Source of the DNA: Pseudomonadota bacterium
GTDB lineage: Bacteria > Bdellovibrionota_C > UBA2361 > OMIW01
Direction: 5' to 3'
Length of the DNA: 5,030 bases
Assembly (NCBI GenBank): GCA_900299205.1
Contig: OMIW01000109.1
Span: forward strand, 1-5,030
The notes beneath the pieces are model-generated. The model was not told where the DNA came from. It did no database searches and saw nothing but the letters and a program-made list of their open reading frames with translations. Positions 38-4,730 of this stretch are shown piece by piece; the first letter of the stretch is position 1, and every line of letters starts with the position of its first letter. Both the position numbers and the translations under genes were made by a program.

Positions 38-1597
38 TTAATCTTGCGACGCCTCGCACCCTCGCTCCTCATCCAGGTCTATCCATCCATCGACCACGAC
101 CCCGACCTCCTCGATAGCAAGCAACAGGGGAAGTCTCTCGTCCTCGCTCTCCTCGGCGGTAAATACCAGTCTGACGGGACCATCACCATAGTGATGCTTC
201 ACCAGAAGAGCCAACGCTTTATAATCGCGAGCATCCTGCGTGATTCCGATAAGGTCGGCGGCCGCCTCTTTCGAGTCTGCGTGCCCTTCCCTCATGAACC
301 GCTCCTGCAGAAATGCTGCGCCAAAGCCATGCCCGCCGCCATCTTCGGGGTACAACACTACCAGCCCATTACCATTTTCCACAATCGCCTGTACTGAGCG
401 CTGGTAGGATGTTGAGCGTTCCTCGGGAGCCAGGGGAAATCTCTGCAGATAACTCTCCGACTGAACTCGTACAAGAGGCATCTCCCTCTCGACTTTGGAA
501 TGCTCGAGGACCACAAAATCCCGGCACGATGCGCTATCGTGATAAATGTGGTCATTAAACCAATACGGATGTTTGGCGATAAATCGCGAGAGCTCCTGCT
601 TTTCGGGCCCAACCGCTTCAAGTATCGAAGGGTCGAACTCGACAAGCACCTCCCCTGAAGATAACGGGAATTCACCCACCAAGGAGGAAGCCGATTCTTC
701 CCCGGACGCGCTCATTACTAGCCCCTTAAAAGCCTCAACCGCAGAGGCAGGAATGAGCAGCATGCCCTCAGGCGGCCGAATCGGGAGGGGATAAGTCGCC
801 GTATGGGTAAAACGCGCAGCCCCCTCAAATCGCCTCGGAAGAAAGGTCCGAACTTCCCAAGGTATCGTTCCGACCTCCTCTCCTTGCGCGGTGATCATAT
901 GACCGCCAGCGGCTTTTTTACTCTCAAGGTAGTGAGCATTATGGGGATTTGATGGAACCGACAACTCATCTCGGACGTAAGAAATTCCAGCATCCTGAAG
1001 AGCTTTCAACTTCAGGGGATTGTTCGTCATTATGCGAAGGTCAGCGGATATATTGAGGAGGTGGACCAAGTCTGACAGCATTTCGTAGGATCGAGCGTCT
1101 GCCGGCAATCCCATCGCGTGGTAGGCGTCAAATGTGTTTATTTTATTGCCGCTGTTCATGACCGCCATCCGGTCACGACCCTTATTCGAGTAACCCGCCC
1201 CTCGCCCTTCCTGAAAGAGATAAAAGAGAACCCCTCTCCCTTCCTGAGCAATCTGGGAGAGTGCTTTGTCGAGCTGTTGGACACAATCACAGTCGCATCC
1301 GCCAAGAGTTTCGCTGGTGATGCACTCAGAATGAAGGCGAACGAGCAGAGGGTCATTCGAACCTATGTCTCCCATCGAGACCGCGACCACGTGAGACCGA
1401 TCCGGGAGGGACTCAAACGCGTGAAATTGGAAGGTACCGTGTGTCAATTCGACTGGAAAACTGCCCATCGACTCAAGGCGGCCATGAATCGGAGCGCCCG
1501 TGCGACCCACCCCAAGCGCACTACCCGGTAAGGCGACTAATGATTCGTCATCCCACCGAGACGGACTTCCCCCTGCTCCATTTACTAATGCATCCAT
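38..1597 (-). CDS. Tandem GTP cyclohydrolase II-like protein with a degenerate second domain
   Basis: GTP cyclohydrolase II (RibA) opens the GTP imidazole ring, releasing formate and pyrophosphate, as the first step of riboflavin synthesis; it is a cytosolic zinc enzyme. The first domain spans about residues 44-235. It has RLHSEC (Cys92) and CDC (Cys103, Cys105) at the exact E. coli zinc-ligand spacing (54/65/67), QEGRG at 129-133, the ADAR motif with Asp167 and Arg169 (E. coli Asp126/Arg128), and TNNP at 191-194. The position of E. coli Tyr105 is Arg143, and about three extra residues follow before Asp167. After a linker of unknown function (about 236-345), residues 350-505 look like a second copy: RVQSES for RLHSEC, GNGLVVLY for GRGVLFYL, TQDARDY for PADARSY. 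That copy lacks all zinc cysteines, the QEGR arginine and TNNP. E. coli RibA has about 196 residues; this has 519. The ATG at 1597 is the first usable start, with GGGAG about 14 bases upstream, which is long; Met44 is an alternative. Likely cotranscribed with the upstream cyclo-ligase paralog. Fold is certain; the reaction is not. Confidence 0.9.
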   Translation of the reverse strand: MDALVNGAGGSPSRWDDESLVALPGSALGVGRTGAPIHGRLESMGSFPVELTHGTFQFHAFESLPDRSHVVAVSMGDIGSNDPLLVRLHSECITSETLGGCDCDCVQQLDKALSQIAQEGRGVLFYLFQEGRGAGYSNKGRDRMAVMNSGNKINTFDAYHAMGLPADARSYEMLSDLVHLLNISADLRIMTNNPLKLKALQDAGISYVRDELSVPSNPHNAHYLESKKAAGGHMITAQGEEVGTIPWEVRTFLPRRFEGAARFTHTATYPLPIRPPEGMLLIPASAVEAFKGLVMSASGEESASSLVGEFPLSSGEVLVEFDPSILEAVGPEKQELSRFIAKHPYWFNDHIYHDSASCRDFVVLEHSKVEREMPLVRVQSESYLQRFPLAPEERSTSYQRSVQAIVENGNGLVVLYPEDGGGHGFGAAFLQERFMREGHADSKEAAADLIGITQDARDYKALALLVKHHYGDGPVRLVFTAEESEDERLPLLLAIEEVGVVVDGWIDLDEERGCEASQD

Positions 1598-2501: not shown

Positions 2502-2664
2502 CAGCTCATCCCCCACGCGACAAAATTTATCGAAAAACTCTGGACGAACACCACCACTCAGGAAGCGAACACATCTTTCGGGAAGTTTATTACATGGGAA
2601 GAAATTAGTCCAATCGCACAACCCACATTTGCTTTGAATTTTGGGAGATAATAAACTCTCGAAT
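2502..2664. other. Divergent intergenic region between the cyclo-ligase paralog and HAD genes
   Basis: If the start codons at 2501 (minus) and 2665 (plus) are right, this 163-base stretch is a shared regulatory region. It is more AT-rich than its flanks around 2586-2600 and 2625-2655. On the plus strand a GATAAT at 2647-2652 could serve as a -10 for the HAD gene, placing the transcript start only about six bases before the ATG at 2665, but no good -35 hexamer sits 16-18 bases upstream. The minus-strand frame stays open through 2621 and would encode a 40-residue extension with four cysteines, not expected from the family. Confidence 0.4.
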
Positions 2665-2675
2665 ATGTTTGTCCA
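2648..2675 (-). promoter_or_regulatory. Sigma70-like promoter for the cyclo-ligase paralog/cyclohydrolase unit
   Basis: Read on the minus strand, TGGACA (complement of 2670-2675; 5 of 6 to TTGACA) is followed after 16 bases by TATTAT (complement of 2648-2653; 5 of 6 to TATAAT). Transcription would start near 2641. This gives a leader of about 140 bases if translation begins at 2501, or about 20 bases if the TTG at 2621 is used. The element overlaps the first codons of the divergent HAD gene, so expression of the two directions probably interferes. It is the best promoter match I noticed in the window, judged by eye only. Confidence 0.5.
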
Positions 2676-3570
2676 GAATCGAGAACTTCCCCTATCTCAC
2701 CTATCGGCGACGCTCCAGAGGCTGCGTGCAGCAAGCACTTTCATATTTGACGTCGACGGGACCTTGGTTGAGCGGCAGCAGTTCTTAAATCCCGATCTCT
2801 CCCGAGCCCTCGTAGGATGCGGAAAACAGCTTGGGATAGCGACCAGCCGAGCCCAGGACGAGCTCGACGAGATATTTGCTTTCAGTACGATTCCAAGGTC
2901 CGAACTTTTCCAGGGACCTGTCATCCTGGAGGATGGCGCGGTGATAATTCGGGACGGCGCCTCCCAAACGATTGCTGACCCCGATCACATTCGGGCGATA
3001 GACAGCCTGAGGTCACATCTCACCGCTCACATAACTTCGGTGGGCGAAAACAACATGTGGGGGCAGCTTGCGCACATTGAAGCCCCGCTCGTGCATATAC
3101 CGAGCCGATATGACTATCAGGCGAGTATGAGCGTCTGGCAGCTACCTTCGGGCGATGGAGATAATTCGCACCTTTTCGCAAGAATCATGGCATGGTGCCA
3201 GGATGCAGTATCCGACCTCAAGCTGCAGTCGATGATAGAGCTTGTTGAAATCGGTGACGGAACGTTGCGCGCCTCTGTTCCAGGTCGCAGCAAGGGGGTA
3301 GCTCTCGGCGAGCTCCACCAATTAAATGTTCTCGATCTCGGAAGCACGGTTTTCTTCGGAGACGGAAAAAACGATGTCGCGGCAGCTCAGGTAGTAAAAG
3401 CTGCCGGAGGCTGGGTGGTCGCAGTTGATCACAAGTGTCAGCCCCTCGTGGACGAAGCCAATTTTGTGACCTCGTTGCCCACCGATTTCAACGGCCTCGG
3501 AACGGCGGGACCCAAAGCGATAGAAGGCCTCCTCGCCCTTGCTGCTACTGCTGAGAGCAATCTTCGCTGA
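2665..3570 (+). CDS. HAD-superfamily phosphatase, Cof/IIB-like
   Basis: Probable Mg2+-dependent cytosolic phosphatase acting on a small phosphorylated metabolite. Counting from the ATG at 2665 (301 residues), motif I is FDVDGTLV with the nucleophile Asp29 and acid/base Asp31. Motif II is GIATSR (57-62), motif III is the lysine of GRSKG (Lys210), and motif IV is FFGDGKND (230-237) with metal-binding Asp233 and Asp237. The segment between motifs II and III (about 70-200) is the length of a C2-type cap, and VILEDGAVI (86-94) resembles the 'IxxNGA' element of the Cof/HAD-IIB group. Length is typical for that group, and no signal peptide or membrane segment is visible. A TTG at 2641 is in frame and would add eight residues, but has no ribosome binding site. 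The ATG at 2665 also lacks one at normal spacing (GGGAG is 17 bases away), so leaderless or nearly leaderless translation is possible. It is divergent from the cyclo-ligase paralog gene, sharing its promoter region. The substrate cannot be read from the sequence; a nucleotide from the neighbouring cyclohydrolase is a guess. Confidence 0.87.
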   Translation: MFVQNRELPLSHLSATLQRLRAASTFIFDVDGTLVERQQFLNPDLSRALVGCGKQLGIATSRAQDELDEIFAFSTIPRSELFQGPVILEDGAVIIRDGASQTIADPDHIRAIDSLRSHLTAHITSVGENNMWGQLAHIEAPLVHIPSRYDYQASMSVWQLPSGDGDNSHLFARIMAWCQDAVSDLKLQSMIELVEIGDGTLRASVPGRSKGVALGELHQLNVLDLGSTVFFGDGKNDVAAAQVVKAAGGWVVAVDHKCQPLVDEANFVTSLPTDFNGLGTAGPKAIEGLLALAATAESNLR

Positions 3571-3788: not shown

Positions 3789-4730
3789 TCATCCCCGCCT
3801 TCCGAGCGCCTTCTCGCATCGATACCATCTGCTTGTTCCGAGCAACCCGATATCCTCCTCAAGATAGGCGAGAGCGTGCTTCATCTCCGTAAGGGACACA
3901 CCCGTTTCCACACCGAGCTGTTCGCAGAGGTATACTATCTCCTCGGTCGCGACGTTACCGGTCGCGCCACGCGCAAAGGGACATCCACCGATACCGCCGA
4001 CCGATGATTCGAATATCGACACACCACTCTCGATTCCTGCCATCACATTCGCCATCCCCAACCCACGGGTATCGTGAAGGTGGAGCGAAACGTCACAACC
4101 GGTACCCTGAGCAAGACGCCGCACGAGATCGGCAACACGACGAGGCTCGCCCCACCCCATCGTATCCGCAACACATATCTCTCGAGGTGGAGCACCTCTC
4201 GCCGTTGCTAGCCGTTCGAGCACCCGATCCACCGCAGAGCAGACCCGATCATTCTCGATTCGTCCCTCGTCGTTGCATCCGAAACAGGTGGACACCATGA
4301 ATCCGTGAAGGTATGTCCTCGTCTCCTCAAAGGTGTCGCACCACGACGGAATTGAGTCGAGAAACTGAGCAAAGGTGATGTTGCTATTTTTTCTGAGAAA
4401 CGTCTCACTCGCCGCAAACGGGAGCCATCCCGCGACGGTGATCGGACCCTCTGCTGCCCGCGCCCGCCGGAGCCCGTGCTGATTGAGATACAGGACGGTG
4501 TACGAAACCCCCTCATGAGGGGGAAGTCGTCGGCAGAGCTCCTCAGCATCCGCCATCTGAGGAACTTTGTCGGGACGCACGAACGAACTAACCTCGAGGG
4601 TCTTCAGGCCTGTCGCGAGAAGATACTCGATTAGCTGAAGCTTCTTTTCGGTGGGATAAACGGTGCTGAAGCTCTGAAATCCCTCTCTGACTCCTACTTC
4701 GCGGATAGTAATGGCTGTCATGATGGTCAT
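3789..4730 (-). CDS. HMG-CoA lyase-like DRE-TIM metallolyase
   Basis: HMG-CoA lyase cleaves 3-hydroxy-3-methylglutaryl-CoA to acetyl-CoA and acetoacetate, in leucine catabolism; relatives cleave or condense other acyl-CoAs. The 313 residues cover the full TIM barrel. In order: REVGVREGFQ (10-19; Arg15 matches human Arg41), EVSSFV and VPQMAD (47-61; Glu47 matches human Glu72), a FAASETFLRKN-type segment (105-115), VSTCFGC (146-152), ADTMGWG (188-194), the metal-binding HLHDT (His217, His219), GGCPFA (248-253) with the loop cysteine Cys250 matching human Cys266, and GATGNVATE (255-263; metal-binding Asn259). The human metal-ligand Asp42 is Glu16 here. There is no signal or targeting sequence. 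The start may be the ATG at 4730 or 4721. AGGG lies 2 bases before the first and 11 before the second, so 4721 (310 residues) may be preferable. It is convergent with the HAD gene and separate from the other minus-strand genes. No acyl-CoA ligase, dehydrogenase or carboxylase of a leucine operon is adjacent, so the true substrate may differ from HMG-CoA. Confidence 0.88.
   Translation of the reverse strand: MTIMTAITIREVGVREGFQSFSTVYPTEKKLQLIEYLLATGLKTLEVSSFVRPDKVPQMADAEELCRRLPPHEGVSYTVLYLNQHGLRRARAAEGPITVAGWLPFAASETFLRKNSNITFAQFLDSIPSWCDTFEETRTYLHGFMVSTCFGCNDEGRIENDRVCSAVDRVLERLATARGAPPREICVADTMGWGEPRRVADLVRRLAQGTGCDVSLHLHDTRGLGMANVMAGIESGVSIFESSVGGIGGCPFARGATGNVATEEIVYLCEQLGVETGVSLTEMKHALAYLEEDIGLLGTSRWYRCEKALGRRG

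Follow-up and report, generated by a model that had tools for sequence, protein, structure and literature searches.

GTP cyclohydrolase II (GCH II) opens the ring of GTP in the first step of vitamin B2 (riboflavin) synthesis, and in the broad genome sample most genomes with any match to its Pfam family, PF00925, have a single one. In RibBA, a single GCH II domain is joined not to another of its kind but to a DHBP synthase (PF00926). GCH II paralogues also start biosynthetic routes to GTP-derived compounds (toxoflavin, Streptomyces), and the UTP cyclohydrolases (PDB 7eev and 7ej3; Urc1 type) are members of the GCH II superfamily with a use outside riboflavin synthesis. The Streptomyces protein SCO6655, studied by Spoonamore et al. 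in 2006, reportedly has methionine instead of tyrosine at the place of residue 105 of the Escherichia coli enzyme, so that the formyl group is said to stay on the product (FAPy). No description of a tandem GCH II was found in the literature searched, and the double-domain family presented here has apparently not yet been described.

The window, that is, the whole stretch of DNA analyzed (5,030 nucleotides), is an entire contig of a draft genome of 2.45 Mb in 206 contigs, about 90% complete. At positions 38–1597 of its reverse strand (−), an open reading frame with an ATG start codes for a double-domain GCH II paralogue of 519 amino acids, in which PF00925 is matched in two stretches and which has four full-length homologues among the relatives (38%–46% identity). 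The whole protein scores 157.8 bits against PF00925 (curated cut-off 23.3) by virtue of its first domain, the best stretch being residues 47–206 (E = 2.3e-46). The full-chain structure model has a pLDDT of 86.6 and a pTM of 0.87. Both halves have the fold of E. coli RibA (2bz0), and the first has the complete zinc and GTP site of that enzyme. The differences from RibA are that two domains are present per chain, the second of them zinc-less, that Tyr105 is replaced, and that the gene lies away from riboflavin genes.

The N-terminal domain (residues 41–230; 908–1477, −) is predicted to be catalytic, given its fold match to 2bz0 (Z = 19.4) and the conservation of its residues in the family. The predicted site consists of the zinc ligands Cys92, Cys103, and Cys105, together with Gln108, Glu130, Arg132, Asp167, Arg169, and the TNNP motif at 191–194. 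The three cysteines, Glu-Gly-Arg, Asp-x-Arg, and TNNP are invariant or nearly so among the 51 N-domains of the family; in E. coli numbering, Arg49, His51, Cys54, Cys65, Cys67, Gln70, Gln91, Glu92, Arg94, Lys101, Asp126, Arg128, Thr149, Asn150, Asn151, and Lys154 are the same in 51/51. All the RibA active-site residues checked are thus kept, with Tyr105 as the sole exception. This position is occupied by arginine in 50 of the 51 family members versus tyrosine in 22 of 22 RibA domains. Its equivalent in the window protein lies in Arg143-Met144 (1166–1171, −), being Arg143 according to hhalign and Met144 according to phmmer, and neither these nor the family alignment places a tyrosine there. SCO6655 is reportedly similar in that the tyrosine is replaced, but it is said to be a single-domain protein with methionine where the double protein has arginine (or Met144, by the other alignment).

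The intact active site of the N-domain would fit a second, regulated RibA making the normal riboflavin precursor, with the zinc-less domain as an allosteric or stabilizing half, and the protein passes the subfamily model NF001591 (176.6 bits, cut-off 148). Such a role is nevertheless unlikely, as the RibA equivalog model TIGR00505 is not reached (166.6 bits, cut-off 205.85), the catalytic-site tyrosine is replaced, none of the recurrent neighbors found is a riboflavin gene, and all the carrier genomes checked contain a further GCH II. A full and intact RibBA, separate from the double gene, is present in the window genome, and the genomes of relatives have at least one PF00925 match besides it in 12 of the 12 checked. 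The two models also carry a warning for annotation, since the protein passes as “GTP cyclohydrolase II RibA” under NF001591 but not under the equivalog model. Yet another, weaker RibBA-like protein of 401 amino acids is encoded on contig C9 of the window genome (L003:361–1566, +; 133 bits for PF00926 and 93.5 bits for PF00925), and its GCH II part seems to lack the zinc cysteines. Weak second matches of this kind are found in many genomes of the order.

The C-terminal domain is a zinc-less GCH II spanning residues 258–510 (68–826, −). The initial annotation had placed a second GCH II copy in the same chain, at residues 350–505 or so, on the basis of an alignment by eye, and had proposed a profile search and a structure prediction of the C-terminal half. 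Both bear out the duplication. Residues 255–519 alone match PF00925 with 27.0 bits (E = 3.9e-6), above the curated cut-off of 23.3, and the second domain taken alone from Verrucomicrobia homologues scores 33–60 bits. In hhalign, a profile built for the C-domain from alignment A2 of the family (51 sequences) matches RibA domains at a probability of 99.45% and a score of 146. The model of residues 250–519 alone (pLDDT 86.5, pTM 0.81) has as its top solved match the E. coli enzyme 2bz0 (Z = 17.9, rmsd 2.5, 171 of 173 residues), followed by the GCH II of Helicobacter pylori (Z = 16.1, 172 of 173 residues), and its order of strands and helices repeats that of the N-domain. A different fold for residues 340–519 can be discarded, as unrelated chains reach at best Z = 6.1, versus 17.9 for GCH II.

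The extent first given to the copy was too short. An insertion of about 63 residues (279–341; 575–763, −) lies between strands 1 and 2 of the C-domain in the secondary structure of the model, and because it splits off the first strand (260–273), the domain begins near residue 258. A control slice, residues 246–345, which in the model comprises this first strand and the insertion, shows no relation to GCH II by profile (0.3% against RibA domains). The insertion itself gives only weak fold matches (BipA, SBDS, and EF-G chains, Z = 5–6). A WH_Egal match at residues 286–348 (E = 0.0001–0.0003) is under the Pfam cut-off and was taken as chance.

The residues of the second domain agree in most respects with what had been read from the window sequence. 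The places of the three zinc cysteines are held by Ser382, Glu392, and Arg394, all of them replacements as first claimed; most relatives have serine, a variable residue, and asparagine. The Asp-x-Arg pair is retained as Asp455-Ala456-Arg457 (227–235, −), the aspartate in 47 and the arginine in 49 of 50 relatives. The reported loss of the QEGR and TNNP motifs holds for the window protein, which has EDGG and TAEE, but does not extend to the family as far as the arginine of QEGR is concerned: this residue (the Arg94 place) is kept by 48 of 50 relatives, mostly as Asp-Gly-Arg, and the glycine of the window protein is unusual. In E. coli numbering, the C-domain keeps Arg49, Arg94, Asp126, and Arg128 in 47–49 of 50 relatives, the Gln70 place is mostly lysine, and the Glu92 place is aspartate.

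Selection on the two domains was compared in close pairs of relatives only, because distant pairs are saturated and their dN/dS values unreliable. In 27 such pairs, the N-domain has a median dN/dS of 0.027 and the C-domain one of 0.030, compared with 0.108 in the insertion-bearing stretch. Purifying selection on the C-domain in the relatives thus equals that on the N-domain, which indicates that the C-domain is not decaying and favors the view that this half of the protein is stable and has a function. Having lost all the zinc ligands, the second domain might be seen as an evolutionary leftover that serves no purpose, but this is highly improbable when its dN/dS is as low as that of the catalytic domain and about 50 sequences share its own motifs. 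In keeping with the high whole-chain confidence of the full model (pTM 0.87), the zinc-less half would most likely be a permanent built-in dimer partner, possibly with a nucleotide site, and may form an intramolecular pseudo-dimer with the first half. As a putative natural pseudo-dimer, the double GCH II lends itself to a simple test of what the catalytically dead half contributes.

A scan of genome contigs places the double-domain family at no fewer than 80 loci, mostly in Opitutales and other Verrucomicrobia. Cultured carriers include Geminisphaera, Cerasicoccus, Coraliomargarita, and Ereboglobus, and one deltaproteobacterial MAG is also among the carriers. The gene is carried by 17 of 387 Verrucomicrobiota genomes and by 5 of 45 genomes of the window's phylum. 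Neighbors were counted at 82 loci by tblastn with representative proteins, because six-frame clustering is noisy at high-GC loci, where long antisense frames occur. The closest association is with a gene for an SIS-like protein, present on the same strand within 4 kb in 47/82 loci, in 41 of these within 300 bases, and in none farther away. At one locus (L119:7977–10352, +), the double GCH II and the SIS-like protein are naturally fused in one open reading frame of 792 amino acids. The SIS-like family matches PF01380 weakly (best E = 0.003); it is divergent, with conserved GxGSSxAHA and SQGxSxN motifs (alignment A4, e.g., L034:1882–2982). The window genome, at about 90% completeness, yielded no SIS-like protein. 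With at least 80 loci and a consistent neighborhood, the question moves from stabilization to a role outside riboflavin synthesis.

Purine-type genes, counted as permease, HPRT, purine nucleoside permease, adenosine or adenine deaminase, and AtzE-like amidase, provide at least one neighbor within 6 kb in 47/82 loci, a raw count taken around the double gene alone. An NCS2-type permease lies directly upstream of the double gene in 17 loci. Other genes near it are those for HPRT (12 loci), a purine nucleoside permease (14), an AtzE-like amidase (16), and an amidohydrolase (16). Several of the families also occur 4–8 kb away, so that the link to purine genes is looser than that to the SIS-like gene. 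The permease that adjoins the gene is of xanthine/uracil type, and in the fold searches GCH II is followed by UTP cyclohydrolases, at only Z = 12.5–12.8; both observations would suit an enzyme of pyrimidine breakdown (URC type) that acts like UTP cyclohydrolase. This is very unlikely given that the protein is far under the cut-off of the UTP cyclohydrolase model PRK07198 (31.8 bits versus 403), that the residues of the RibA guanine site are invariant, and that the recurring deaminases are purine rather than pyrimidine deaminases.

The purine-type neighbors belong to Verrucomicrobia, and the window has its own set: genes for a 5-formyltetrahydrofolate cyclo-ligase-like (5-FCL-like) protein, an HAD phosphatase, and an HMG-CoA lyase-like protein. 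The first (PF01812; 1692–2621, −) lies just upstream of the double gene on the same strand and adjoins it at four loci (the window, L034, L035, and L036); its product is well below the equivalog cut-offs and has an N-terminal extension. The HAD-IIB type phosphatase, identified by Pfam and NCBIfam, is divergently oriented (2641–3570, +), and its gene also adjoins the double gene in L036. The HMG-CoA lyase-like protein (3789–4730, −), with 234.7 bits, stays short of the cut-off of 246. That the window has 5-FCL-like and HAD genes and not purine genes, along with the toxoflavin and Streptomyces precedents, would agree with a first step in the biosynthesis of a GTP-derived compound (deazapurine, pteridine, or similar) instead of breakdown. 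We consider this improbable, because the recurrent neighbors in relatives are purine transporters and deaminases and no biosynthetic cluster genes recur near the double gene.

The conserved family joins a predicted active GCH II to a zinc-less copy that is itself under selection, and its location beside purine genes and outside riboflavin gene clusters suggests that the opening of the GTP ring has a second use. The explanation we favor, tentatively and a little short of an even chance, is a GCH II paralogue outside riboflavin synthesis that opens GTP and hands its product to an SIS-type enzyme for purine turnover. From sequence and neighborhood we infer a substrate, a product, a dimer-like packing, and a pathway, the role being probably purine nucleotide turnover. 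The N-domain would bind a purine triphosphate, most likely GTP; Arg169, with Asp167, would form the usual Arg-linked nucleotide, and the zinc site would open the imidazole ring. With Tyr105 of the E. coli enzyme replaced family-wide, the reaction may end with the formylated pyrimidine (FAPy/AFRPP) and release no formate. The zinc-less second domain would be packed permanently onto the first as its partner and, with its phosphate-site and Asp-x-Arg residues kept, may bind a nucleotide, ring opening presumably not being possible there. The product would pass to an SIS-type sugar-phosphate enzyme, the gene for which adjoins the double gene in most relatives; this enzyme could act on the ribosylamine phosphate. 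In Verrucomicrobia such a pathway would serve purine turnover or the use of purine nitrogen.

It is conceivable, if doubtful, that the family takes part in an undescribed breakdown of purines at the nucleotide level. Purine bases would be imported, deaminated, and made into nucleotides. The double GCH II would then open GTP, giving a diaminopyrimidine ribotide in formylated or free form, and the SIS-type enzyme would remove the sugar phosphate, in bacteria without xanthine dehydrogenase (xdhA) or allantoinase matches above cut-off. Neither xdhA nor allantoinase models gave a match above cut-off in 21 carrier genomes, which also counts in favor of the explanation preferred above, although these genomes may have other purine routes; the allantoinase-model matches in these genomes are weaker and probably dihydroorotases. 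BrbF, a creatininase-type FAPy formamidase (PMC9478397), would pair well with a GCH II that makes FAPy, and creatininase-family genes are present within 8 kb in 6/82 loci. The link is weak because these neighboring genes best match MftE and creatininase models.

A reversed tandem GCH II is also found in 2 of 45 genomes of the window's phylum (L036:836–2413, −, and L038:944–2590, −). Its first domain is the one without a zinc site, and its second has the Cys and CxC with glutamate in place of the general-base aspartate. In L036, the reversed tandem adjoins the homologue of the window protein.
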